A stretch of 64,000 bases of DNA from Xanthobacteraceae bacterium (GCA_019746135.1 JAIESI010000043.1:1-64000), one strand, 5' to 3'. Shown: positions 37,332-63,901, counted from the first letter of the stretch. A program made the numbers and translations. The notes: generated by a model not told the origin, from the letters alone.

Positions 37332-38453
37332 GTGCCCGCATCCCCGCTTGCTCCGTTCAAGGCCGAAGTCGTCGGCAGCCTGTTGCGGCCCACGGCGATC
37401 CACGAGGCGCGGAGCGGCCGCGCGCAAGGGCGCGTCAGCGCCGACGAGCTGTGGGCGGTCGAGACGCGCGCGATCGACGACGCGGTGGCGCTGCAGCGCG
37501 ACACAGGCCTCAGGGTGTGCACCGACGGCGAGTTCCGCCGCCGGCACTGGTTCATGGATTTCATCGAGCGCATCGACGGCGTCGGCTTCGAAGGCTCGTT
37601 GCCGACGCGGTTTCACAACGAGGCCGGCGACATCGAGTTTGCGCCGCCGCGCGTGGTGGTCAAAGGCAAGCTGAAGCGGGTCCAGCCGCTCGCCGTGCAC
37701 CATTTCGCGGCGCTCAAGGGCGTCGCCGATCGCGCGGGGCTGGTCGCCAAACAGCCGATCCCGTCGCCGACGATCCTGCACTTCCGCGGCGGCCGCGCCG
37801 CGATCGACGAGACCGCCTACCCGGACATGGCGGAGTTCTTCGCCGACCTTGCCCGCGTCTATCGCGAGGAGATCGCGGCGCTCTATCAGGCCGGCTGCCG
37901 CTACGTGCAGATCGACGAGACCAACCTGCCGTTCCTGTGCGATCCGCAAATGCGCGACGGCGTGGTGAGGCGCGGCGACGACCCGGACGCCCTGCCTGCG
38001 ACCTACGTGGCGCTCTTGAACGAGTGCCTGCGCGAGGTGCCGGACGACATGGTCGTCGGCATGCACATGTGCCGCGGCAACCACGAAAGCAGCTGGGCCG
38101 CGGAGGGCGGCTACGATCCGGTGGCGGAGCTCGCCTTCAGCGCCATCGACGTCGATGCGCTGTTTCTCGAATACGACAGCCCGCGCGCCGGCACCTTCGC
38201 GCCGCTGAAGCATCTCGCCAAGAACAAGACCGCCGTGCTGGGTCTGGTCACGACCAAGAAGGGCAAACTCGAAACCAGGGACGAGATCAAGCGCCGGATC
38301 GAGGAGGCGGCCCGGATTGCGCCGATCGAGCAGCTTGCGCTGAGCCCGCAGTGCGGGTTTGCCAGCACGATCAGGGGCAATGCGCTGACGCCCGACGAGC
38401 AGCGGCGCAAGCTCGAGCTGGTGGTGGAGGTTGCGGGAGCGGTCTGGGGTTGA
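37332..38453 (+). CDS. Short MetE-like (cobalamin-independent methionine synthase C-terminal family) protein, paralog 1
   Basis: TDGEFRRRHWFMDF; zinc-ligand pattern MHMCRGNHESSW, FLEYDSPRAGTF, LSPQCGFAS; no N-terminal folate-binding half. Confidence 0.85.
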   Translation: MPASPLAPFKAEVVGSLLRPTAIHEARSGRAQGRVSADELWAVETRAIDDAVALQRDTGLRVCTDGEFRRRHWFMDFIERIDGVGFEGSLPTRFHNEAGDIEFAPPRVVVKGKLKRVQPLAVHHFAALKGVADRAGLVAKQPIPSPTILHFRGGRAAIDETAYPDMAEFFADLARVYREEIAALYQAGCRYVQIDETNLPFLCDPQMRDGVVRRGDDPDALPATYVALLNECLREVPDDMVVGMHMCRGNHESSWAAEGGYDPVAELAFSAIDVDALFLEYDSPRAGTFAPLKHLAKNKTAVLGLVTTKKGKLETRDEIKRRIEEAARIAPIEQLALSPQCGFASTIRGNALTPDEQRRKLELVVEVAGAVWG

Positions 38454-49603: not shown

Positions 49604-50401
49604 CTATACCTTCGGGTCGACGTCGAGGCGCACGACGAGCCCCGACAGCGCCGAGGACGCCGCCGGATAGAGCTTCATCACCGCGGGATCGTGTCCCGGC
49701 ACGATGTGATGCCGCGACGACGCGAGCCGCTTCAGCGTCTCGTAGCCCTCGAGCACTTCCGCGAGATTGTAGGTGGTCGGGAAGATCCGCGCCTCGTCGA
49801 GATGCGGATAGAGGTGCACCGCGTCGGCCGCGAGCATCACGAAGCCGCGCCTGGTTTTGACCCGGAGGCTTTGCAGGCCCATGGCGTGGCCGCCGATGTG
49901 GTGCAGGGTGATGCCCGGCGCAAGCTCGCTCACGCCGTCATGGAAGGTCACGCGGCCGGCGAACAGCTTGCGCACCATCGCGACGACATAGTCCTCCTCG
50001 TAGGAGAAGCGGAGCTGCCGGTGGCACATGCAGCGGCCGGTGCACATCTGCATCTCCTTGTCCTGCACGTGATAGCGGGCGCGCGGGAACAGGTCGACGT
50101 TGCCGCAGTGGTCGTAGTGCATGTGGCTGATGATGACGTCCTCGACCTGGTCGGGATCGACGCCGAAACGCTTCAGCGCCTCGCCGACCGGCGTGATGAC
50201 GGTGCGCCCGCGCCTGGTGCCGACCGGCTGGTCGAAACCGGTGTCGACCACGAAGGTGCGCTTGTCGTTGCGGATCACCCAGACGAAATAATCGAGCGGC
50301 TGCAGCACGTCGTGCGGGTCGCCGCCGATGTAGTTGTCCGCAGCCTTGCGCTGATGCTCGGCATAGCGGACCGCGAAGACCTCCCAGATATCGTCGCTCA
50401 T
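49604..50401 (-). CDS. MBL-fold hydrolase, N-acyl homoserine lactonase-like family
   Basis: VIISHMHYDHCGNVDLFPRARYHVQDKEMQMCTGR (HxHxDH), GHAMGLQSLRV. Confidence 0.85.
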   Translation of the reverse strand: MSDDIWEVFAVRYAEHQRKAADNYIGGDPHDVLQPLDYFVWVIRNDKRTFVVDTGFDQPVGTRRGRTVITPVGEALKRFGVDPDQVEDVIISHMHYDHCGNVDLFPRARYHVQDKEMQMCTGRCMCHRQLRFSYEEDYVVAMVRKLFAGRVTFHDGVSELAPGITLHHIGGHAMGLQSLRVKTRRGFVMLAADAVHLYPHLDEARIFPTTYNLAEVLEGYETLKRLASSRHHIVPGHDPAVMKLYPAASSALSGLVVRLDVDPKV

Positions 50402-50409
50402 GGCAGCCC

Positions 50410-51306
50410 TCAGGATTTCTTCGCCGCACGCATCTCCACGCCGGCGCGCTTCTCGACGGTCTTGGCCAGCTCGGTGAAGTCCGACTGCTCGCCGTTCTCC
50501 TTCATCGCCGCCTCCCACAGGCTGCCGACCGCCTTCGCGACCTCGAGCGGGATGCCGAAGTCTTCGGCTTCGGCGAGGAACAGCCGCACGTCCTTCACCA
50601 TCAGCGCCATGCCGAAGCCGTAGTCGAAGGTGCCGGGCAGCACCGAGCGGGGAAACTTCTGCGTCGTCGCCGTGTTCATGCCGCTGCCGGCATTGATCAC
50701 GTCGCACATCAGGCTCGGATCGAGGCCGGCCTTGACCCCCATCGCGATCGCTTCGGAGCTTGCCGCCATGCCGGTGGCCGAGAGGAAATTGTTGGCGAGC
50801 TTCATGCTTTGCGCCATGCCGGGCTTATCGCCGCAGTAGAACACCTTGCCGAACACCTCGAGCGCCGGACGGACCAACTCGACCTCGTCCTTCGGGCCGG
50901 ACACCATGACGGCGAGCGTGCCCTTCTCCGCGCCGGCGACGCCGCCGCTCACCGGGCAATCGATCTGCACGATGTTGCGGGCTTGCAAAATTTCCGCGGT
51001 CTTGACCGCCGCGCGCGAGCCGGTGGTGGAGAGGTCGATATAGCGACGGACGCGGTTGCCGCGGGTGAGGCCGTTCTCGCCGTTGACCACCTTCATGCCG
51101 ATGTCGAGCGAGGGCAGGCTCGTCATCACCGTCTCGACCCGGCTGGCGACGTCGGCCGGCGAGCTTGCCGCCTGCGCGCCGAGCTTAACGAGCTTGTCCA
51201 TCGCCTCCTTGCGGGTGTCGAACACCGTGAGCTTGTGCCCGGCCTCGACCAAGCGGCGGCTCATCGGGCCGCCCATGTTGCCCAGGCCGATGAATCCGAT
51301 TTCCAT
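50410..51306 (-). CDS. NAD(P)-dependent oxidoreductase (3-hydroxyisobutyrate dehydrogenase family)
   Basis: MEIGFIGLGNMGGPMSRRLVEAGHKLTVFDTRKEAMDKL; DCPVSGGVAGAEKGTLAVMV. Confidence 0.9.
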   Translation of the reverse strand: MEIGFIGLGNMGGPMSRRLVEAGHKLTVFDTRKEAMDKLVKLGAQAASSPADVASRVETVMTSLPSLDIGMKVVNGENGLTRGNRVRRYIDLSTTGSRAAVKTAEILQARNIVQIDCPVSGGVAGAEKGTLAVMVSGPKDEVELVRPALEVFGKVFYCGDKPGMAQSMKLANNFLSATGMAASSEAIAMGVKAGLDPSLMCDVINAGSGMNTATTQKFPRSVLPGTFDYGFGMALMVKDVRLFLAEAEDFGIPLEVAKAVGSLWEAAMKENGEQSDFTELAKTVEKRAGVEMRAAKKS

Positions 51307-51333: not shown

Positions 51334-52476
51334 TCAAACCTTAGCAGCTTTGGGCGCGAACTCGGCGCGCACTTTGGCGCTGTGCTCGCCCACCGCGGGC
51401 ACCGGCCCATAGCGCCGCGGCTCGCCGTCGCGCTGGGCGGCGGGCGCCGGATAGGACAGCGGGCCGTTGGGCGAGCCGAGCGTGATGCGGCGCAGATGCG
51501 GGTGCCGCGCGAGCTCGGCCGGGCCGTTGACGCGGCCGAAGGCGATGTCGGCCTCGGCGAGCTTCTGTTCCAGCGCGTTGACGTCGAGCCGGCCGAAGGC
51601 GGCGGCGACCCTGCCGTCGGTTTCGGCGCGGCGCTTCACCCGCTCGATGTTGGTGGCGAAGTTCGGATCGGCGGCGAGCGCTTTGTCGTCGAGCACCTTC
51701 TCGGCGAGGATGCGCCATTCGCGGTCGCTCTGGATCGAGATCAGGATATCCGCGCCGTCCTTCGACTTGAACACGCCGTAGGGCGAGATCGAGGTGTGCG
51801 CGAGCCCGATGCGCTTGGGCGGCGAGCCGCCCTCGTGCTGCAGCAGCGGCACCGTCATCCAGTCGGCCATGGCGTCGAACATCGACACCGAGATCGCCGC
51901 GCCCTCGCCGGTGCGGCCGCGCGCGATCAGCGCCTCGAGGATCGCCTCATAGGCGTTCATGCCCGAGGCGATGTCGCAGACCGACACGCCGACGCGCGAG
52001 GGCGCCTCCGGCCCGCCGGTCACCGAGGCGACGCCGGCCTCGGCCTGGATCAGCATGTCGTAGGCCTTGCGCTGCGCATAGGGGCCGGTTTCGCCATAGC
52101 CCGACACCGAGCAGACGATCAGCCGCGGATAGTCGCGCCGCAGCCGGTCGAGGCCGAAGCCGAGCTTGGCGACCGAGCCGGGCTTGAGGTTCTGGATGAA
52201 CACGTCGGCTTTGGCGAGCATGGCTTCGAGCAGCGCCTTGTCCTCGTCCTTGGCGAGATCCATCACCACGGATTCCTTGCCGCGGTTGAGCCAGACGAAA
52301 TAGCTCGACTGCCCGTTTGCGAGCGCGTCGTAACCGCGCGCGAAGTCGCCCTCGGGACGCTCGATCTTGATGACGCGCGCGCCGGCGTCGGCGAGCCGGC
52401 ACGAGCACATGGGTGCTGCGACCGCCTGCTCCAGCGAGACGACGAGGATGCCGGAGAGGGGGAGCGTCGGTGCCAC
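51334..52476 (-). CDS. CaiB/BaiF family (class III) CoA transferase
   Basis: LPLSGILVVSLEQAVAAPMCSCRLADAGARVIKIERPEGDFARGYD; ADVFIQNLKPGSVAKLG. Confidence 0.92.
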   Translation of the reverse strand: MAPTLPLSGILVVSLEQAVAAPMCSCRLADAGARVIKIERPEGDFARGYDALANGQSSYFVWLNRGKESVVMDLAKDEDKALLEAMLAKADVFIQNLKPGSVAKLGFGLDRLRRDYPRLIVCSVSGYGETGPYAQRKAYDMLIQAEAGVASVTGGPEAPSRVGVSVCDIASGMNAYEAILEALIARGRTGEGAAISVSMFDAMADWMTVPLLQHEGGSPPKRIGLAHTSISPYGVFKSKDGADILISIQSDREWRILAEKVLDDKALAADPNFATNIERVKRRAETDGRVAAAFGRLDVNALEQKLAEADIAFGRVNGPAELARHPHLRRITLGSPNGPLSYPAPAAQRDGEPRRYGPVPAVGEHSAKVRAEFAPKAAKV

Positions 52477-52974: not shown

Positions 52975-54144
52975 CTAGTACGACCGCGGCAATCCAAGCA
53001 CGTGCTCGGCGATGTACGACAGCACCAGATTGGTCGAGATCGGCGCCACCGTGTAGAGCCGCGTCTCGCGGAACTTGCGCTCGATGTCGAACTCCTCGGC
53101 GAAGCCGAAGCCGCCATGGGTCTGCAGGCACATGTCGGCCGCGGCCCATGACGCTTCCGCGGCGAGCTGCTTCGCCATGTTGGCCTGCTCGCCGCAATCC
53201 TCGCCCGCCTCGTAGCGCCGCGCGGCCTCGTGCACCATCAATTCCGCGGCGCGCATCTGCATGTAGCAGCGGGCGATCGGGAACTGGACGCCCTGGTTCT
53301 GGCCGATCGGCCGGTTGAACAGCGTGCGCTCCTTGGCGTAGGCCGACGCCTTCTCGACGAACCACTTGGCGTCGCCGATGCACTCCGAGCCGATCAGGAT
53401 GCGCTCGGCATTCATGCCGGAGAGAATGTAGCGGAAGCCCTTGCCCTCCTCGCCGACCAGGCTGTCGGCCGGGATCCGCATGTTGTCGAAGAACACTTCC
53501 GTCGTCGCGTGGTTCATCATGGTGCGGATCGGCCGGATCGTCAGCCCCTGGCCCTGCACCGCGCGCATGTCGACCAGAAACACCGACAGCCCGTCGGTGC
53601 GCGACTTCGCCTGCTCGCGCGGCGTGGTGCGGGCGAGCAGCAGCATCAGGTCGGAATGCTCGGCGCGCGAGGTCCAGATCTTCTGGCCGTTGACCACATA
53701 GCCGCTGTTGCCGTCCTTGACCGCGGTGGTGCGCAGCGACAGCGTGTCGGTGCCGGAGGTCGGCTCGGTGACGCCGAACGCCTGCAAGCGCAACTCGCCC
53801 CTGGCGATGCCCGGCAGATACTTCTGCTTCTGCTCGGCGCTGCCGTGCCGCAGCACCGTGCCCATGGTGTACATCTGCGCGTGGCAGGCGGCGCCGTTGC
53901 AGCCCGCGGCATGGATTTCCTCCATGATCGCCGCGGCCGCCGACATCTTGAGGCCGCTGCCGCCGTATTCTTCGGGGATCAGCGCTGCGAGAAAGCCCGC
54001 CTTGGTCAGCGCCTGCACGAACCCGGTGGGGTAGGCGCGCTCGCGGTCGACCCTGCGCCAGTATTCGCCGGGAAATTCCGCGCACAACGCCCGCACCGCC
54101 TCACGGATCGGCGCAAGCTCGGCGTCGTGCGCGGCGCCCGTCAT
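52975..54144 (-). CDS. Acyl-CoA dehydrogenase family protein
   Basis: LQAFGVTEPTSGTDTLSLRTTAVKDGNSGYVVNGQKIWTSRAEHSDLM; QTHGGFGFAEEFDIERKFRETRLYTVAPISTNLV. Confidence 0.93.
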   Translation of the reverse strand: MTGAAHDAELAPIREAVRALCAEFPGEYWRRVDRERAYPTGFVQALTKAGFLAALIPEEYGGSGLKMSAAAAIMEEIHAAGCNGAACHAQMYTMGTVLRHGSAEQKQKYLPGIARGELRLQAFGVTEPTSGTDTLSLRTTAVKDGNSGYVVNGQKIWTSRAEHSDLMLLLARTTPREQAKSRTDGLSVFLVDMRAVQGQGLTIRPIRTMMNHATTEVFFDNMRIPADSLVGEEGKGFRYILSGMNAERILIGSECIGDAKWFVEKASAYAKERTLFNRPIGQNQGVQFPIARCYMQMRAAELMVHEAARRYEAGEDCGEQANMAKQLAAEASWAAADMCLQTHGGFGFAEEFDIERKFRETRLYTVAPISTNLVLSYIAEHVLGLPRSY

Positions 54145-55001
54145 CCCTTCACCTCGGCGCGGCCGTTGTTCATCACCACGACGTTGCGCGCGGGCACCGA
54201 GGCGCGGAAGCTCACGACATTGCCGTCGCGCCACATCTCGGTGCGGATGGTCTCGCCGGGAAACACCGGCGCCGAGAACCGCCCGCCGAACGCGGCGACG
54301 CGCGCAGGATCATAGTCGCAGACGCTTTTCAGCAGCGCGTGGCCGACGACGCCGAAGGTGCCGAGCCCGTGCAGGATCGGCTTGGGAAAGCCCGCGGTCG
54401 TGGCCATCTCCGGGTCGATGTGCAGCGGATTGCGGTCGCCGGAGAGGCGATAGATGGTCGCCTGCTCCGGCCGCGTGGCGAGATCGCAGACGAGGTCCGG
54501 CGCGCGCCCGGGGATCGGGTGCACCGGCGGGCTCTCGCGCGGCGGGCCGCCGAAGCCGCCGTCGGCGCGGCAGAACGTGGTCTGCGTCGTGGTCGCGATC
54601 AGCGCGCCGCTCGCCTTGTCAAAGACCTTGCGCTCGGCATAGACCAGCGCACCCTTGCCCGGCCCCTTGTCGATCACCTCGAGGACGCGGGTCTTGCCGA
54701 CCACCGTGCCGGCCGGCTTCAGCGGCTGGTGCAGGAAGACCGCCTGCTCGCCGTTGACGATCCGCACCCAGTCGATGCCGGTGTCGAGATCGCGCACCCA
54801 GAAGCCCGGATAGCCGAGCATGGCGGCGAAGGTCGGCAGGGCCTTGAGGCTCCGCTCGTAGACGAAATCGAGCTGTTTCAGGTCGAGCGGGTCGTGGCCG
54901 AGGCCGACGCCCAGCGCGTAAAGAATCGTGTCCTTGTCGGTGTAGGTGTGCTCGGCGTCGGGGATTTTCAGCGCGAGCAGCTTGTCGTAGTTGATGGCCA
55001 T
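54141..55001 (-). CDS. MaoC-family enoyl-CoA hydratase
   Basis: YTDKDTILYALGVGLGHDPLDLKQLDFVYE; YRLSGDRNPLHIDPEMATTAGFPKPILHGLGTFG. Confidence 0.92.
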   Translation of the reverse strand: MAINYDKLLALKIPDAEHTYTDKDTILYALGVGLGHDPLDLKQLDFVYERSLKALPTFAAMLGYPGFWVRDLDTGIDWVRIVNGEQAVFLHQPLKPAGTVVGKTRVLEVIDKGPGKGALVYAERKVFDKASGALIATTTQTTFCRADGGFGGPPRESPPVHPIPGRAPDLVCDLATRPEQATIYRLSGDRNPLHIDPEMATTAGFPKPILHGLGTFGVVGHALLKSVCDYDPARVAAFGGRFSAPVFPGETIRTEMWRDGNVVSFRASVPARNVVVMNNGRAEVKG

Positions 55002-55090: not shown

Positions 55091-56005
55091 TCAGATCGGA
55101 TCCCAGGCGAACACCTCGCCGGAGCGGTCGAGCGGCGTGAACGAGGGGCCGAACGCGCCCTTGAGCTGCGCGTCGATCTTCTCCGGCGTCCAGCCGTCGG
55201 AGCGGTGGATGGCGCGGATCGGCCGGGTCTGGTTGAACAGGAAAATCTCGTTGTTGCGCACCGAGAAGATCTGCCCGGAAATTCCCGCGGCCTTGTCGGA
55301 GCCGAGATAGACCACGAGCGGCGCGATCTTCTCCGGCGTCATCTGCTGCAGCCGCGCGACGCGCTCCTTCTCGGCGTCGGTCTCGGTCGGGATCGAGCCG
55401 ATCATGCGGCCCCAGGCGAACGGCGCGATGGCGTTCGAGCGCACGTTGAAGCGCTGCATGTCGAGCGCGATGCCGCGCGACAGGCCGACGATGCCCATCT
55501 TCGCCGCCATGTAGTTGGCCTGGCCGAAGTTGCCGATCAGCCCCGAGGTCGACGTCATGTGGATCATCGAGCCGGAGTTCTGCTCGCGGAAGTGCGCGGC
55601 GCAGGCGCGGCTCATCGAGAACGAGCCGTGCAGATGCACCGCGATCACGTCCGACCAGTCGGACCAGCTCATGCGGTGGAAGATCTTGTCGCGCAGGATG
55701 CCGGCGTTGTTGACCAGGATATCGACGCGGCCGAAGGTCTCCAGCGTCGAGGCGACGATCTTGTCGGCGTTGGCGGGATCGCCGATCGAGACGGTCGAGG
55801 CGATGGCGTGGCCGCCCTTCTTCCTGATCTCGTTGACCACCTCCTGGGCCGGGCCGACGTCGCCGCCGGAGCCGTCCAGCGCCGCGCCGATGTCGTTGAC
55901 CACGACCTTGGCGCCCTCCTCGGCGAGCATGAGCGCGATGGCGCGGCCGATGCCGCGGCCCGCGCCGGTGACGATTGCGACTTTTCCTTCGACGATTCCT
56001 GGCAC
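55091..56005 (-). CDS. SDR-family 3-hydroxyacyl-CoA dehydrogenase-like oxidoreductase
   Basis: VEGKVAIVTGAGRGIGRAIALMLAEEGAKVVVNDIGAALDGSGGDVGPAQEVV; GTG start behind GGAGGGAATT. Confidence 0.9.
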   Translation of the reverse strand: MPGIVEGKVAIVTGAGRGIGRAIALMLAEEGAKVVVNDIGAALDGSGGDVGPAQEVVNEIRKKGGHAIASTVSIGDPANADKIVASTLETFGRVDILVNNAGILRDKIFHRMSWSDWSDVIAVHLHGSFSMSRACAAHFREQNSGSMIHMTSTSGLIGNFGQANYMAAKMGIVGLSRGIALDMQRFNVRSNAIAPFAWGRMIGSIPTETDAEKERVARLQQMTPEKIAPLVVYLGSDKAAGISGQIFSVRNNEIFLFNQTRPIRAIHRSDGWTPEKIDAQLKGAFGPSFTPLDRSGEVFAWDPI

Positions 56006-56017
56006 AATTCCCTCCAC

Positions 56018-56132
56018 GTCATGCCCGGCTTCATGCCGGGCATCCACGCCTTGGCCGCACATTAAAGGCGTGGATGGCCGGGACAACGGGTCCCCGCCAA
56101 CTTTGTTGGCGGGGTCCCGACCCGGCCATGAC
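56018..56132. repeat. Intergenic palindromic repeat cluster
   Basis: ATCCACGCCTT/AAGGCGTGGAT and GGTCCCCGCCAAC-TTT-GTTGGCGGGGTCC inverted repeats, GTCATGCCCGGC-type ends. Confidence 0.7.
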
Positions 56133-56167
56133 GGCGGCGTACGCGGCAACTCCTGCGTGAAATTGGG

Positions 56168-57274
56168 CTAACGGCCCCAGACCTCGTCGGCCACTTCCAC
56201 GATCAGGCGCAGCTTCGCCCATTGCTCGTCCTCCGTGAGCAGGTTGCCCTCCTCGGTCGAGGCAAAGCCGCACTGGCCGGACAGGCAGAGCTGGTCGAGG
56301 CTTGCGAACTTCGCCGCCTGGTCGATCCGGCGCTTGAGCTCGTCCTTGCTCTCGAGCTGGCCGGTCTTGGTGGTCACCAGCCCGAGCACCACGGTCTTGC
56401 CCTTCGGCAGCAGCCGCAGCGGCTCGAAGCCGCCGGCGCGCTCGGTGTCGTACTCCATGAAATAGCCGTGCACGTTGGTCTGGTTGAACAGCACGTCGGC
56501 CTCGGCGTCATAGCCGCCGGCGCCCATGAAGGTGGATTTGTAGTTGCCGCGGCACAGGTGCATGGTGATGGTCATATCGGAGGGAATGTCCGACATCGCC
56601 GCGTTGATCAGCTTGGCATAGAGCGGCCCGAGCTTCTCCGGATCGTCGCCGCGCTTCACCATCTGGTCGCGGTAGTTCGGATCGCACAGCATGGCGATGA
56701 ACACCTCGTCGAGCTGAAGGTAGCGGCAGCCGGCGTCGGCAAAACCGCGCACCGCCCGCTTGTAGGCGTTGCCGAGGTCGTCCCAGAAACGGTCCATCGA
56801 CGGATACACGGTCTTGTCGATCGGCGTCGCGATCGGCCGACCGTAGATCGCCGACGGCGCCGGAATGGTGATCTTCGGCGTGCGCCTGGTGTGCGCCGCG
56901 ACGAACCTGAAGTGCTCGACCATCGGATGCGGCCCGGCCATGCCGAGCTTGCCGGTGACCTTCACGCCTTCGTTGCGGGTGTTGACCGCGGCGAAATGCA
57001 CGCCCTCGGCCATGAGGTGCTTCTCGGCGCCGTCGAGGCCCCACAGGAAGTCGAGATGCCACCACGAGCGGCGGAACTCGCCGTCGGTGACGGCTTCAAG
57101 GCCGACATCCTCCTGCTTCCTGATGACGCGCTCGATCTCGCGGTCTTCGATTTCTTTCAATGCCTGCGGCGTGATCTCGCCTTTGGCGTGCTTCGCGCGC
57201 GCGTCATGGACCGCCTGCGGACGGAGCAGGCTGCCGACATGGTCGGCGCGGAACGGCGGCTTGGTGCGTTTCAT
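56168..57274 (-). CDS. Short MetE-like protein, paralog 2
   Basis: MKRTKPPFRADHVGSLLRPQAVHDARAKHAKGEI; MHLCRGNYKSTFMGAGGYD, FMEYDTERAGGFEPLRLL, LSGQCGFAS. Confidence 0.9.
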   Translation of the reverse strand: MKRTKPPFRADHVGSLLRPQAVHDARAKHAKGEITPQALKEIEDREIERVIRKQEDVGLEAVTDGEFRRSWWHLDFLWGLDGAEKHLMAEGVHFAAVNTRNEGVKVTGKLGMAGPHPMVEHFRFVAAHTRRTPKITIPAPSAIYGRPIATPIDKTVYPSMDRFWDDLGNAYKRAVRGFADAGCRYLQLDEVFIAMLCDPNYRDQMVKRGDDPEKLGPLYAKLINAAMSDIPSDMTITMHLCRGNYKSTFMGAGGYDAEADVLFNQTNVHGYFMEYDTERAGGFEPLRLLPKGKTVVLGLVTTKTGQLESKDELKRRIDQAAKFASLDQLCLSGQCGFASTEEGNLLTEDEQWAKLRLIVEVADEVWGR

Positions 57275-57335
57275 GTGGCTTCTCCCTGTTTTTGGTTTTC
57301 TTAGCACTGGCGGTCGTGCGGCTGGCTCGCTCTCG

Positions 57336-57481
57336 TGTCCCGGGCGCGACGCAGCACGCAGCGCAGCGGAGTGATGCGGCGCAGACCCGGGACCGTTCCA
57401 CATTCGGTATTCGTAACGGTCCCGGGTCTGCAGTGCATCACTTCGCGCTGTCGCGCTACGTGCTGCACTGCGCCCGGGACA
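57336..57481. repeat. Inverted pair of the GIY-YIG-flanking repeat type with a short spacer only
   Basis: TGTCCCGGGCGCGACGCAGC...GCAGACCCGGGACCGTT (57336-57397) and AACGGTCCCGGGTCTGC...GCCCGGGACA (57415-57481). Confidence 0.82.
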
Positions 57482-57493
57482 CGGAAGAACGGG

Positions 57494-58765
57494 CTACGGC
57501 CTCGCCTTCTCGAACGGATAGATGATGTCCCCCGACTTGTACTGCGGCGGATAGAGCAGCACCTCGGCCTTCAGGTCGCGGAACTGGTCGATCGAACCGT
57601 CCTTGATGTTCTGGAACTGGATCAGCAGCATCCGGTCCTTGGCCCATTCGCCCTTGTCGCCGAACTTCACGTCACCCGCGGTGGTCTTGAACGTGGTCTT
57701 GCGCAGGTGGTCGGCGATCCGGTCGTCGTTCAGGCTGTTGGTCGCCTTGATCGAGTCGCCCAGCACCTGAAGATACGCGTAGGCCCAGACCGGCATGTAG
57801 TAGCCGAGCGGATCGACGCCTTCGGCCGCGGCGCGCGCCTGATACTTCTTCAGGAGCTCCATCGAGCCCGGGAACTGCAGCTTCTCGAACGGCAACCAGG
57901 TCTCGTAGTTGACGATGCCGTTCAGCAGCGGACCAAGCTGCATCTTGAACGCCGTCGCTTGCAGGCCGACCATCGCGCCGCCGATCATCTTCGGCTTGTA
58001 GCCGATCTCGTTGATCGCCTTCAGCAAGCCGACCGAGTCGAGCGGGTACGAGCAGATCATCACAATGTCGGGATTGCTGGCCTGGATCGCGCGCACGATC
58101 GGGCCGAAATCCGTGGTCGGCGGCGGATAGGTCCGGTCATAGGTGATGCGGAGCTTCAGGTTCTTGGCGTTCTCGCGCGCGCCGTCGCAGGCGTTGCGGC
58201 CGAACTCGGCATCGGCGGCGACGATCGCGACCGACGTGGGCTTCGGGTTCTGCGCCATCGCCACCGTGAAGAAGCCCTCGCTGTAGGTGGGCTTCGGCGT
58301 CGGTCCGGTCGGCAGCATCGAGAAGTATTTGTCGTATTTGAACTCGTCGTTGATGCCGGTGCCGAACAGGCTGATGAACAGCCGCTTCTTCTGGATCATC
58401 ACCGGCATGGCCGCCGCGATCTGGGTCGAGGCATAGGCGCTGACCGCGAAGTCGACCTTGTCGACGTCGAGAAGCTTGGAGTAGATGCCGGGCACCTGCG
58501 CCGGGCTCGACTGGTCGTCGTAATAGATCAGCTTCACCGGGCGGCCGAGCAGCCCGCCCGACTTGTTGATGTCATCCTCCCAGATCTTCATCGCCACCAG
58601 CGACATCTTGCCGTTGGCCGAGAGCGGCCCGGTCAGCGACATGCTGAAGCCGATCTTGATCGGCTCGCCGCTCTGCGCGAGTGCCGCGCCGGCCGACAAG
58701 GCCAGCGCCGCGGCGCCGCACGCGACATTGCGCGCGAGACGCCGCCAGTTGAGCAGTCCACTCAT
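57494..58765 (-). CDS. ABC transporter substrate-binding protein (branched-chain amino acid/amide type)
   Basis: Signal peptide; GEPIKIGFSMSLTGPLSANGKMSLVAMKIWEDDINKSGGLLGRPVKLIYYDDQSSPAQV. Confidence 0.9.
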   Translation of the reverse strand: MSGLLNWRRLARNVACGAAALALSAGAALAQSGEPIKIGFSMSLTGPLSANGKMSLVAMKIWEDDINKSGGLLGRPVKLIYYDDQSSPAQVPGIYSKLLDVDKVDFAVSAYASTQIAAAMPVMIQKKRLFISLFGTGINDEFKYDKYFSMLPTGPTPKPTYSEGFFTVAMAQNPKPTSVAIVAADAEFGRNACDGARENAKNLKLRITYDRTYPPPTTDFGPIVRAIQASNPDIVMICSYPLDSVGLLKAINEIGYKPKMIGGAMVGLQATAFKMQLGPLLNGIVNYETWLPFEKLQFPGSMELLKKYQARAAAEGVDPLGYYMPVWAYAYLQVLGDSIKATNSLNDDRIADHLRKTTFKTTAGDVKFGDKGEWAKDRMLLIQFQNIKDGSIDQFRDLKAEVLLYPPQYKSGDIIYPFEKARP

Positions 58766-58803
58766 GCTTTCCTCCGTTGCAAAACCAGAATTCCGCCGAT
58801 CGC

Positions 58804-59913
58804 TCAGCGGCCCCAGATTTCCTCCGCAAGCTCGACGACCATGCGAAGCTTCGCCCATTGCTCGTCTTCGGCTATGATATTGCCTTCTTCGCTGGACGCG
58901 AAGCCACATTGCGGTGACAGGCAGATCTGGTCGAGCGGCATGAATTTCGCGGCCTGCTCGATGCGGCGTTTGATCGCATCCTTGGATTCCAGCACGCCGG
59001 TCTTCGACGTGACCAGCCCGAGCACGACCTGCTTGCCCTTGGGCACGAAGCGCAGCGGCTCGAACCCGCCGGCGCGCTCGCTGTCGTACTCCATGAAATA
59101 GCCGTGCACGTTGATGGTGTTGAACAGAAGCTCGGCCACCGGCTCGTAGCCGCCCGAGGCGATGAAGGTCGAGCGGAAGTTGCCGCGGCACAGATGCATG
59201 GTGATGGTCATGTCGGCGGGAATGTCCGACATCGCCGCGTTGATCATGCGGGCATAGGCCGCCGGCAGCGCGGCCGGGTCCTCGCCCCGGTCCCTGACCT
59301 GCTGGATCAGCTTCGGATCGCAAAGGTAGGTGAGGTTCACCTCGTCGAGTTGCAGGTAGCGGCAGCCGGCGTCGGCGAAGGCCCGCACCGTCTTGCGATA
59401 AGTCTCGCCGAGGTCACGGTAGAAGTCCTCGATATCGGGATAGACCGACGCCGGCACCGCGTCGCGGCCGTCGCGGAAGTGCACCGCCGACGGCGACGGG
59501 ATCGTCATCTTCGGCGTCTGCCGGGTATGGGCCGCCAGAAACCTGAAGTGGTCGATCATCGGATGGCCGGCGAAGCCGCCGAGCTTTCGCGCGACCCGCG
59601 GCAGCACCTGCTGCGGCTGCACGCCGCCCTGGAAATTGACCTTGCGCTGGTGCGAAACCGTCTCGATGCCGGGCAGCGCCGAGACGAAATCGGTCTGCCA
59701 GGATTTGCGGCGGTTTTCGCCGTCGGTGATCGACTTGAGACCGATCGACTCCTGCTTGCGGATCAGCGCTTCGATCTCGCGATCCTCCGCCGCCTTCAAC
59801 TGCCCGGCGTCGATCTCGCCCGCGGCGCGTTTGGCGCGGGCATCCTTCAGCGCGGCGGAGCGGAGCAGGCTGCCAACCTGATCGGCACGGAAGGGCGGCT
59901 TGGTACGCTGCAT
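58804..59913 (-). CDS. Short MetE-like protein, paralog 3
   Basis: MQRTKPPFRADQVGSLLRSAALKDARAKRAAGEI; MHLCRGNFRSTFIASGGYEPV, FMEYDSERAGGFEPLRFV, LSPQCGFAS. Confidence 0.9.
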   Translation of the reverse strand: MQRTKPPFRADQVGSLLRSAALKDARAKRAAGEIDAGQLKAAEDREIEALIRKQESIGLKSITDGENRRKSWQTDFVSALPGIETVSHQRKVNFQGGVQPQQVLPRVARKLGGFAGHPMIDHFRFLAAHTRQTPKMTIPSPSAVHFRDGRDAVPASVYPDIEDFYRDLGETYRKTVRAFADAGCRYLQLDEVNLTYLCDPKLIQQVRDRGEDPAALPAAYARMINAAMSDIPADMTITMHLCRGNFRSTFIASGGYEPVAELLFNTINVHGYFMEYDSERAGGFEPLRFVPKGKQVVLGLVTSKTGVLESKDAIKRRIEQAAKFMPLDQICLSPQCGFASSEEGNIIAEDEQWAKLRMVVELAEEIWGR

Positions 59914-59930
59914 GCTGCTCACTTGATCTC

Positions 59931-61037
59931 TCACTTGCCCCACACCTCTTCCGACAATTCCACGATCATCCGCAGCTTCGCCCACTGCTCGTCCTCGGCG
60001 AGGATGTTGCCCTCCTCGGTGGAGGCAAAGCCGCACTGCGGCGACAGGCAAAGCTGGTCGAGCGACACGTATTTCGCCGCCTCGTCGATCCGGCGCTTGA
60101 GCGCGTCCTTCGACTCCAGTGTGCCCGACTTCGACGTCACCAGGCCGAGCACCACGGTCTTGCCCTTCGGCACGAACCGCAGCGGCTCGAAGCCGCCGGC
60201 GCGGTCGGTGTCGTATTCCATGAAATAGGCCTGGATCTTGACCTCGTTGAACAGGATTTCCGCGACCGGCTCGTAGCCGCCCGAGGCGACGAAGGTGGAC
60301 TGGAAATTGCCGCGGCAAAGGTGCATCGCCGTCGTCATGTCGGCCGGCACGTCGGAGATCGCCGCATTGATCATCCGGGCGTAGTCGTGCGGCATCTTGT
60401 CGGGATCGTCGCCGCGCTCGGTCACCTGGGCCCGCAGCTTCGGATCGCAGAGATAGGTGAAGTTCACCTCGTCGAGCTGGATGTAGCGGCAGCCGGCGTC
60501 GGCAAAGGCGCGCACCGCCTTGCGGTAGCTCTGGCCGAGATCGTTGTAGAACTCCTCCATGTCCGGATAGATCGCCTCCGGCACCGCCGAGCGCCCGTAG
60601 CGGAAGTGCAGCGACGAGGGCGACGGGATCGTCATCTTCGCCGTCTCTCCGGTCTGCGACTGCACATATTTGAAGTGCTCGATCATCGGATGGCCGGCGA
60701 ACGCGCCGAGCTTGCCGGTTACGCGCAGCATCATCGGCTTGGGCTGCTTGCCCTGGAACGCGATCTTGCGCTCGCCAAGGTAGGCCTCGACGCCGGGAAG
60801 CTTGCCGAGGAAGTCGTAGTTCCAGAACGCGCGGCGGTATTCGCCGTCGGTGATGGACTTGAGCCCGACCGCCTCCTGCTTCTTGATGAGCGCGGCGATC
60901 TCGCGGTCTTCAGTGGCCTTCAGTTGTTCGGCCGTGATCTCGTTCTTCTCGCGTTTTGCGCGGGCTTCCTTGAGCGCCGCGGAGCGAAGAAGACTGCCGA
61001 CATGATCGGCGCGGAAGGGAGGTGTCGCGCGTTGCAT
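59931..61037 (-). CDS. Short MetE-like protein, paralog 4
   Basis: MQRATPPFRADHVGSLLRSAALKEARAKREKNEI; MHLCRGNFQSTFVASGGYEPV, FMEYDTDRAGGFEPLRFV, LSPQCGFAS. Confidence 0.9.
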   Translation of the reverse strand: MQRATPPFRADHVGSLLRSAALKEARAKREKNEITAEQLKATEDREIAALIKKQEAVGLKSITDGEYRRAFWNYDFLGKLPGVEAYLGERKIAFQGKQPKPMMLRVTGKLGAFAGHPMIEHFKYVQSQTGETAKMTIPSPSSLHFRYGRSAVPEAIYPDMEEFYNDLGQSYRKAVRAFADAGCRYIQLDEVNFTYLCDPKLRAQVTERGDDPDKMPHDYARMINAAISDVPADMTTAMHLCRGNFQSTFVASGGYEPVAEILFNEVKIQAYFMEYDTDRAGGFEPLRFVPKGKTVVLGLVTSKSGTLESKDALKRRIDEAAKYVSLDQLCLSPQCGFASTEEGNILAEDEQWAKLRMIVELSEEVWGK

Positions 61038-61260
61038 TCCAGATTTCCTTCCAGTGACAGCGGAACTTGCCTCCGGCCGTCACCCCCCGGGCTTGACCCG
61101 GGGGATCCATACGGTGGCGCGGCGCCGAACACACCTACGATTTGACTTCGATGCGCTCGCTCATGGATCGCCGGGACATCGGCGAGCGAAGCGACGCCGT
61201 CCTTCGGACGGCTATGCCCGGCGATGACACCGCGTGTGTGGCAGCTAGGGGGCGGCTGCC

Positions 61261-62367
61261 TCACTTCCCCCAGATCTCCTCGGCGACCTCCACCACCTCG
61301 CGCATCTTCGCCCACTGCTGCTCCTCGGTGAGCACATTGCCCTCCTCGGTCGAGGCGAAGCCGCATTGCGGGCTGAGCGCGAGCTGGTCGAGCGGCGCGA
61401 ACTTCGCCGCCTCGTCGATCCGGCGCTTGACCAGGTCCTTCGGCTCCAGCGTGCCGCTCTTCGAGGTGATGACGCCGACCACGACGATCTTGTTGCCCTT
61501 CGGCAGGAAGCGCAGCGGCTCGAAGCCGCCGGCACGCTCGCTGTCGTATTCGAGGAAGTAGCCGTCGAAGTTGCACCGGGCGAGCAGCCGCTCCGCCACC
61601 GGCTCGTAGCCGCCCGAGGCAATCCAGGTCGAGCGGAAGTTGCCGCGGCAGACATGGGTGGTGATCGTCATGTCGGCCGGCTTGTCCCTGACCGAGTCGT
61701 TGATCAGCCTGGTGTAGTCGTCGGCGAGCGTCGCGACGTTCATGCCGCGGTCCTTCGCCTTCTTCATCTCGGCGTCGGAGCACAGATAGGCCCAGGCGGT
61801 GTCGTCGAACTGCAGATAGCGGCAGCCGGCGTCGTAGAACGCCTTCACCGCCTTGCGATAGGCCGCGGCGAGATCGGCAAAGATCGCGTCGTTGTTCGGA
61901 TAGGCCTGTTTCGAGACCGCGCCCGGCTCGAGGCGGAAGTGCAGCACCGTCGGCGCCGGGATGCACATCTTCGGCATCACCTTGGTGTGGCTCTTCACGA
62001 ACTTGAAGTGCTCCAGCATCGGGTGATTGCTGAAGTCGATCTTGCCGGTGACGCGGATGCCCTTCGGCTTGGTCTGCACGCCCTGGAACTGGATGCCGTG
62101 ATCCATCTCGTAGACCTCGACATTGTCGAGGCCGTCATAGAAGTCGTAGTGCCAGAACATGCGGCGGTATTCGCCGTCGGTCACGCATTGCAGGCCGACG
62201 TCCTCCTGCTTCTTGATCACTTTCGGGATCTCCGCGTCCTCGACCTGCTTCAGGTCGGCCGCGCTGATCTGGCCCTTGTCCCGCTTCGCCCGCGCCTCAG
62301 TGATCGCCGCCGAGCGCAGGTAGCTGCCGACATGGTCGGCGCGGAACGGGGGCTTGGTTCTTTTCAT
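61261..62367 (-). CDS. Short MetE-like protein, paralog 5
   Basis: MKRTKPPFRADHVGSYLRSAAITEARAKRDKGQI; THVCRGNFRSTWIASGGYEPV, FLEYDSERAGGFEPLRFL, LSPQCGFAS. Confidence 0.9.
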   Translation of the reverse strand: MKRTKPPFRADHVGSYLRSAAITEARAKRDKGQISAADLKQVEDAEIPKVIKKQEDVGLQCVTDGEYRRMFWHYDFYDGLDNVEVYEMDHGIQFQGVQTKPKGIRVTGKIDFSNHPMLEHFKFVKSHTKVMPKMCIPAPTVLHFRLEPGAVSKQAYPNNDAIFADLAAAYRKAVKAFYDAGCRYLQFDDTAWAYLCSDAEMKKAKDRGMNVATLADDYTRLINDSVRDKPADMTITTHVCRGNFRSTWIASGGYEPVAERLLARCNFDGYFLEYDSERAGGFEPLRFLPKGNKIVVVGVITSKSGTLEPKDLVKRRIDEAAKFAPLDQLALSPQCGFASTEEGNVLTEEQQWAKMREVVEVAEEIWGK

Positions 62368-62695: not shown

Positions 62696-63901
62696 ATGAT
62701 GAAACGCGTTCTCGCGGCGTCCGCCGCGCTTGCGATGTCGGCCGCGCTGGCCAACGCGCAGGAGGTGAAGATCGGCCTGGTTGCGCCGTTCACGGGCATC
62801 GGCGCCGAGCTCGGCCAGCAGATCGACCGTGGCGTCCAGCAGTACCTCAAGCTTCGGGCCAGCGAGTTCGCGCCCTACAAGATCAACATCATCAAGCGCG
62901 ACGACAAGAACCCGTCCGGCGCCGACTCCAAGATCGCGGTGCAGGAGCTCTTGACGCAGGAGAACGTCGACGCGCTGGCCGGCTGGATCTATTCGCCGAA
63001 CGCGATCGCGTCCGCGCCGGTCGTCACCGCCGGCAAGAAGATCGGTGTCATCATGAACGCCGGCACGGCGCACATCACCACCATGTCGCCGCTGTTCGTG
63101 CGCACCTCGTTCAGCATGTGGCACGCCGGCTACGCGCTCGGCGAGGCCGCCGCGAAGCAGCTCAAGGCCAAGACCGCGGTGATCGGCTACAGCGACTTCC
63201 CGCCCGGCAAGGACAGCCTCGCAGCGTTCAAGCGCGCGTTCGAGGCCAACGGCGGCAAGGTGATCGACGAAATCCCGATGGGGGGACCGGCGCAGGTGCC
63301 GGACTTCACGCCGTTCTTCCAGCGCGCCAAGGACAAGAAGCCCGACGTGTTCTTCGTGTTCGTGCCGGCCGGCGACCACGCGCTCGCCGTCACCAAGACC
63401 TACGGCGCGCTCGGCATGAAGCAGGCCGGCATCAAGCTGATCGGCCCGGGCGACATCACCCAGGACATCAAGCTGCAGGCGATGGGCGACGCGGCGATCG
63501 GCCTGATCACCATGCACCACTACAACGCCGACCTCGACAACGCCGCAAACAAGGCCCTCGTTGCGTCCTGGAAGAAGGACTACGGCGCGGATGCGACACC
63601 CGACTTCGTGGCGGTCGGCGCCTATGACGGCATGGCCGTGCTCGCCCACATGATCAAGGCGACCAAGGGCAAGCTCGGCGACACGGACGCGGCGCTCGCC
63701 TCGCTCAAGGACTGGAAATACAACAGCCCGCGCGGCCCGATCTCGATCGATCCGGCGACCCGCGACATCGTCATGAACGAGTACCTGGTCGAGGTCGTGA
63801 AGGGCAGCGACGGCAAGCTGCACCAGAAGCAGCTCGGCAAGATCGACAGCGTCAAGGACCCCTGCAAGGAGCAGAAGATCGGTCCCTGCGCGCCGAAGTG
63901 A
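62696..63901 (+). CDS. ABC transporter substrate-binding protein (branched-chain type)
   Basis: Signal peptide; QEVKIGLVAPFTGIGAELGQQIDRGVQQYLKLRASEFAPYKINIIKRDDKNPSGADSKIAVQELL. Confidence 0.9.
   Translation: MMKRVLAASAALAMSAALANAQEVKIGLVAPFTGIGAELGQQIDRGVQQYLKLRASEFAPYKINIIKRDDKNPSGADSKIAVQELLTQENVDALAGWIYSPNAIASAPVVTAGKKIGVIMNAGTAHITTMSPLFVRTSFSMWHAGYALGEAAAKQLKAKTAVIGYSDFPPGKDSLAAFKRAFEANGGKVIDEIPMGGPAQVPDFTPFFQRAKDKKPDVFFVFVPAGDHALAVTKTYGALGMKQAGIKLIGPGDITQDIKLQAMGDAAIGLITMHHYNADLDNAANKALVASWKKDYGADATPDFVAVGAYDGMAVLAHMIKATKGKLGDTDAALASLKDWKYNSPRGPISIDPATRDIVMNEYLVEVVKGSDGKLHQKQLGKIDSVKDPCKEQKIGPCAPK

Follow-up and report, generated by a model that had tools for sequence, protein, structure and literature searches.

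An array of four MetE-like paralogs in an aromatic-acid catabolic cluster of a Xanthobacteraceae bacterium, with a possible role in methoxy-aromatic demethylation

We analyzed a 64,000-nucleotide stretch of DNA from a Xanthobacteraceae bacterium (GCA_019746135.1 JAIESI010000043.1:1-64000; hereafter the window), which carries an array of four short MetE-like genes between positions 56,168 and 62,367. The encoded proteins are members of an already known subfamily of MetE-like proteins without assigned function, and by the genes around it the array sits in a catabolic gene cluster for lignin-derived aromatic acids. We propose, with about even confidence, that the array encodes zinc/thiol methyltransferases of methoxy-aromatic catabolism, which probably remove O-methyl groups directly. 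NF005085-type MetE-like genes are abbreviated here as MET, and A, B, Ca, Cb and D denote clades of the tree described below. The array comprises:

61261..62367, minus strand: MetE-like copy of clade A, the array's first gene (NF005085, 584.5 bits; tree); 88% identical to its ortholog in the related locus L066; predicted Zn ligands H238, C240, E273 and C335
59931..61037, minus strand: MetE-like copy of clade Cb (NF005085, 530.5 bits; tree)
58804..59913, minus strand: MetE-like copy of clade Ca, 17 bp past the preceding Cb gene (NF005085, 517.2 bits; tree)
57494..58741, minus strand: Peripla_BP_6 solute-binding protein, inside the array between the Ca and D copies (PF13458, 189.9 bits)
56168..57274, minus strand: MetE-like copy of clade D, the array's last gene (NF005085, 507.6 bits; tree)

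A preliminary description of this DNA had reported four paralogs of about 368 aa on one strand, and all four are indeed intact open reading frames, the 58804-59913 copy encoding 369 aa and the other three 368 aa. The other copies are 59, 57 and 56% identical to the 61261-62367 copy. The TDGExRR motif and H-x-C...E...C pattern noted earlier recur here in a common set comprising R-x-x-P-P-F-R-A-D-x-V-G-S, TDGExRR, H-x-C-R-G, F(M/L)EYD and QCGF, with H-x-C-R-G reading MHLCRG in three copies and THVCRG in the 61261-62367 copy. Each protein matches NF005085 (PRK06520, a subfamily of PF01717) at 507.6-584.5 bits over 366-367 residues, against a curated cut-off of 313, and aligns end to end with the solved structure 1YPX. 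The canonical MetE model TIGR01371, which requires more than 930 bits, gives only ~30-40, and the 368-369 aa copies compare with ~750 aa for two-barrel MetE. Scores also fall far under the cut-offs of the MesA-D-related (archaeal and core) NCBIfam models; the adjacent MesX (PF08908) expected of a MesD is absent, the genome's sole MesX lying at C235:9246-10214 beside another MetE-like protein. The copies match PF01717 and MetE-type models rather than GCV_T (PF01571), the LigM/DesA domain, which is found in neighbouring LigM genes. Automatic annotation names them homocysteine methyltransferase, and their kept homocysteine-binding residues argue, only indirectly, against an identity as epoxyalkane:coenzyme M transferases.

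The predicted active site retains one half of the MetE site. In Thermotoga maritima MetE, zinc is held by H618, C620, E642 and C704, homocysteine is contacted by S411, E462 and D577, and the pterin is contacted by W539 and E583, with a DMV motif at 467-469 (Pejchal and Ludwig, PMC539065). A profile alignment to 1XPG, which covers the first part of the barrel and in which chain numbering equals residue + 32, maps S411 to S15, E462 to E66 and D577 to D188, all invariant in all clades. Within the zinc motif, the HxC and the glutamate (E273, placed by motif) are likewise invariant, and the last cysteine (C335) is present in 100% of sequences in four clades and 90% in Ca. At the pterin side, the DMV motif is replaced by x-W-(H/N/Q), W539 by F (by G in clade D; this column is possibly off by one), and E583, whose position was located by counting six residues on from D577, by Y or M. 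Because the zinc and homocysteine residues are invariant while the pterin contacts are replaced, the acceptor side of MetE is, on this mapping, kept and the folate side lost, which bears out the earlier suggestion of zinc thiol-transferases lacking a folate barrel. R145, invariant across clades A-D, could hold a carboxylate.

A tree of 127 NF005085 family proteins, built by a quick method with Shimodaira-Hasegawa-like approximate likelihood ratio test (SH-aLRT) support, separates clades A, B, C and D and, within C, the sub-groups Ca and Cb. The window's array copies fall into A (61261), Cb (59931), Ca (58804) and D (56168), and the order A-B-Cb-Ca-D is kept, with losses, in relatives that include other genera; L066 carries A, B, Cb, Ca (its frame broken in this assembly) and D. 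Identities are ~70-88% between orthologs and 56-62% between paralogs. Judged by this tree and gene order, the array copies are ancient, ordered and specialised paralogs. We found 140 columns conserved within every clade, 20 of which differ between clades; such clade-specific columns account for 6/11 near MetE donor contacts and 14/129 elsewhere (Fisher p = 0.001), in donor-site windows chosen only after examination of the family.

The genes flanking the array are:

62696..63901, plus strand: divergent solute-binding protein (phmmer, 304 bits to 4EY3; Foldseek, 4EY3 and 4EYG)
55091..56149, minus strand: SDR oxidoreductase, real start probably near 56000 (NF005861, 285 bits from residue 51; c24, conserved 3' of arrays)
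54141..55001, minus strand: MaoC-type hydratase (PF01575, PF22622; c15, conserved 3' of arrays)
52975..54144, minus strand: acyl-CoA dehydrogenase (PF00441, PF02771, PF02770; c14)
51334..52476, minus strand: class III CoA-transferase, CaiB type (PF02515, 340.7 bits; c16)
50410..51306, minus strand: 3-hydroxyisobutyrate-dehydrogenase-like (HIBADH-like) protein (PF03446, PF14833; c37)
49604..50434, minus strand: metallo-beta-lactamase-fold hydrolase, possibly the unit's end (PF00753)
37332..38453, plus strand: fifth NF005085 paralog, outside the array (413.8 bits; long branch outside clades A-D)

The SDR, MaoC, acyl-CoA dehydrogenase, CaiB and HIBADH-like genes are conserved 3' of the array in relatives. 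The Peripla_BP_6 gene occupies the same array position in L065, with homologs 3' of MET genes in L068 and L087-L089, and a macro-domain protein gene (window:48833-49387; c33), distal to the catabolic genes that follow the array, has similar counterparts in five relatives. Promoter and terminator scans gave nothing above chance. The window's contig stops 145 bp past the window end; the gene order shared with L066 resumes on this genome's contig C300, a join that rests on synteny rather than overlapping sequence. C300 encodes a Liv-type ATP-binding cassette (ABC) transporter, TctC, a LigC-like oxidoreductase, LigB, LigA and an HbpS-like protein; an Amidohydro_2 protein takes the position of LigI, and PcaF, a crotonase and a PRK12582 acyl-CoA synthetase are encoded as well.

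For the divergent binding protein (62696-63901), the best sequence matches are 4EY3/4EYG/4EYK. A structural model built from 16 homologs (predicted local distance difference test, pLDDT, 89) replaced a poor single-sequence model (pLDDT 41), and its best Foldseek matches are 4EY3, titled as a complex with p-hydroxybenzoic acid, and 4EYG from Rhodopseudomonas palustris BisB5, whose ligand, beginning with "v" in the entry title, we take to be vanillic acid. The protein thus probably binds benzoate derivatives. R. palustris 2.1.18 has its clade-A gene in an operon that also encodes, 5' of this gene, an ortholog of the binding protein; this ortholog is 95% identical to a solved protein of the 4EY3/4EYG family.

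Related loci show a recurrent aromatic context. Among 80 named loci, which were picked by similarity to the array and are hence biased towards it, PcaGH or LigAB lies within 10 kb in 22, and an MTHFR-like gene occurs in 10, immediately 5' of MET in most. LigM is present in L074, L081 and L084 (61-64% identity to a LigM sequence), and VanA in L077 and the actinobacterium L093; 18 of the 22 relatives with ring-cleavage genes have no LigM or VanA within the stretch examined. VanAB adjoins MET genes in L077, L093, L171, L177, L183 and L184, with the order VanA-GntR-VanB, MET, Liv genes, aromatic binding protein and LigBA in L171, and both VanA and VanB next to MET in L177. The Bradyrhizobium arrangement runs purU, an aromatic-type ABC operon, one clade-A gene, gene c1, metK and ahcY.

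We also drew samples at two other taxonomic levels. In a phylum-level sample of 150 genomes, the NF005085 family is present in 15, our own genome included, and three of its 15 other places are Bradyrhizobium-like; in a class-level sample of Alphaproteobacteria, 52/387 genomes carry it. For 40 loci, the controls were 20 stretches of the same genomes, each ~50 kb or more from a match: one or more aromatic markers occurred in 14/40 loci and 1/20 controls (p = 0.009), a sample that is not fully independent because four of the 14 positives are LigB-like genes at 28-29% identity from one genus. Only the wider marker set was enriched; VanA or LigM alone was not (3/40 loci, 1/20 controls).

These observations lead us to the following proposal. 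A dedicated ABC importer would bring the aromatic acid into the cell, where each paralog would hold homocysteine, the probable thiol acceptor, on zinc in the conserved site. The methyl group would come from a methoxy-aromatic donor that differs between paralogs (vanillate, isovanillate, veratrate, syringate and 3-O-methylgallate are examples) and that sits where MetE has its methyl-folate pocket. The resulting phenol, of protocatechuate or gallate type, would pass to ring cleavage by LigAB and then to LigC, LigI-like enzymes and PcaF. That the acceptor is a thiol, that the donor is an aryl methyl ether and that the copies divide the substrates among them are our inferences. A methyl-ether donor is favored because of the methoxy-aromatic gene context; of the donors put forward in the preliminary description, methyl ethers alone are thus favored, and nothing we found points to sulfonium or epoxide substrates, or to coenzyme M. 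The fullest version of the proposal, in which oxygen-independent zinc enzymes move lignin-aromatic methyl groups onto homocysteine and ancient duplication diversified the array into one enzyme per substrate, is more tentative, and we hold it at somewhat less than even confidence.

Several points weigh against this proposal. Further candidate demethylases occur in the array's own genome, in the form of a LigM-like gene and VanA-like genes; we had considered that array genomes might simply be without other demethylases, and dropped the idea on finding these. A cluster that also contains LigM or VanAB has no need of the array for vanillate itself. In the open-access literature that we searched, we found no precedent for an aryl methyl ether passing its methyl group to a zinc thiolate. 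For methionine to be made at catabolic flux, homocysteine would have to be regenerated, and metK and ahcY near MET in Bradyrhizobium only hint at a route. The post hoc choice of donor-site windows makes the enrichment there supportive, not confirmatory. Finally, an aromatic role cannot cover the whole family, because YxjH of Lactobacillus is methionine-regulated and the gammaproteobacterial members in the phylum sample have no aromatic context.

The strongest competing explanation, which we consider possible but rather unlikely, is that LigM or VanAB carries out demethylation and the array enzymes pass the one-carbon unit, from 5-methyl-folate or another carrier, to homocysteine, feeding methionine and S-adenosylmethionine. 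It would account for MET genes adjoining LigM or VanAB in several genomes, for the LigM-like gene immediately 5' of another MET paralog in our own genome, for the MTHFR-like gene between PcaGH and MET in 10 loci and for single Bradyrhizobium copies flanked by metK, ahcY and purU. Sphingobium SYK-6 offers a parallel, since its methionine depends on LigM-derived methyl-folate (PMC6888825). Set against this are the missing folate barrel and lost pterin-binding residues, the presence of MetH and MesD in the genome, and the 18 of 22 ring-cleavage relatives described above; a methionine sink, moreover, does not need four old, distinct and specialised copies.

That the copies are zinc alkyltransferases with another donor, such as a sulfonium, betaine, epoxide or thioether compound, seems improbable to us. 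Such enzymes exist within the fold family, the donor pocket is unlike that of MetE, and the sphingomonad-like relatives L174, L175 and L176 have MET beside genes resembling pyrroloquinoline quinone (PQQ)-alcohol dehydrogenase, aldehyde dehydrogenase and amidohydrolase (read by eye) instead of aromatic genes. Yet aromatic-acid genes neighbor the family in Xanthobacteraceae and other Alphaproteobacteria, and we noticed no coenzyme M, dimethylsulfoniopropionate or betaine gene around the array.

Ordinary or redundant methionine synthases located there by chance are very unlikely: although the automatic names and the intact homocysteine and zinc sites would suit them, MetH and MesX-MesD are present, the multi-clade array is conserved, and separate lineages repeatedly show MET genes beside aromatic genes. 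The preliminary description had argued against redundancy and advised looking for full-length MetE or MetH. The genome encodes a MetH-sized frame (1271 aa) with a homocysteine-methyltransferase domain and a MesX gene adjoining a MesD-like gene, and no N-terminal MetE domain (PF08267), and hence no full-length MetE, scores above cut-off. Redundancy of the array copies is unlikely because of these enzymes, the replaced folate residues, the ancient ordered clades and the differences at the former folate site, so the earlier view holds.

The genome is unusually rich in the MetE fold, since it has ~33 distinct short Meth_synt_2 frames (assembly contamination is estimated at 8.5%). Most of these belong to a KRSTxRIxTTHxGSLPRP type that has no relation to the array. 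Three further NF005085 genes lie elsewhere, beyond the array and the 37332 paralog. A LigM-like GcvT protein (34% identity) is encoded 84 bp upstream of another NF005085 paralog (G000:C302:24298-26660; L159:11200-13667), and this pair is divergent from genes for an acyl-CoA ligase, a Peripla_BP_6 protein and LivH. In other genomes, two protein families accompany MET. The c1 family (~470 aa; L067:7690-9093, L117:11272-12711 and 38 other loci) is without a Pfam match, has a motif like that of S-adenosylmethionine methyltransferases, and occurs in PcaGH-c1-MTHFR-MET and MET-c1-metK-ahcY contexts, with ~62% identity between them. The other, c53, is a further type of short MetE-like protein that occurs in or beside arrays (L121:11173-12216; L088, L091, L095). 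In L072, L073, L080, L085 and L086, a single clade-A gene stands immediately 3' of a Rieske ferredoxin-type gene.

O-demethylation is a bottleneck in bacterial lignin use. If the proposed role is correct, a zinc/thiol route would dispense with both oxygen and the handling of formaldehyde, and a function would be found for a common MetE-like subfamily that lacks an assigned one and is present in 52/387 of the Alphaproteobacteria sampled here. It may also bear on unexplained anaerobic demethylation in R. palustris (PMC6974649, PMC12366328); in relatives of this species, an import operon of vanillate type includes a clade-A gene. Meanwhile, caution is advisable where NF005085-type proteins are automatically named "methionine synthase".

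Among known systems, the array copies most resemble YxjG/YxjH-type proteins (NF005085/PRK06520; NF004875/PRK06233; 1YPX), which have the same length, full-length homology, identical zinc and homocysteine residues, and H-x-R where MetE has the pterin tryptophan. In lactobacilli, YxjH is regulated with methionine genes and lies beside luxS (PMC6004538), whereas the array genes sit in an aromatic catabolic locus; this methionine regulation counts against an aromatic role for the whole family, as noted above. With canonical MetE of T. maritima and Escherichia coli the copies share the C-terminal zinc/homocysteine barrel, but they are without the N-terminal barrel, and the equivalents of DMV, W539 and E583 are replaced. 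MesA-D (PMC7857596) and core-MetE (PMC7005905) are, like the array copies, single-barrel homocysteine methyltransferases without a folate domain. The array copies differ from these in scoring far under the related NCBIfam cut-offs and in having the MesX partner elsewhere, beside a different gene.

Known routes of aromatic O-demethylation use an oxygenase or P450, a corrinoid or tetrahydrofolate. The tetrahydrofolate-dependent demethylases LigM/DesA of Sphingobium SYK-6 have a similar locus, with an MTHFR-like gene, LigAB/LigC and an expected methoxy-aromatic substrate, but LigM is a folate-using protein of the GcvT fold, whereas the array copies are MetE-fold zinc proteins. The Rieske vanillate O-demethylase VanAB also differs, being an oxygen-dependent iron enzyme of unrelated fold that releases formaldehyde. 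The open-access literature searched yielded no description of a MetE-like aromatic demethylase, and the role proposed here would be new for the MetE fold.

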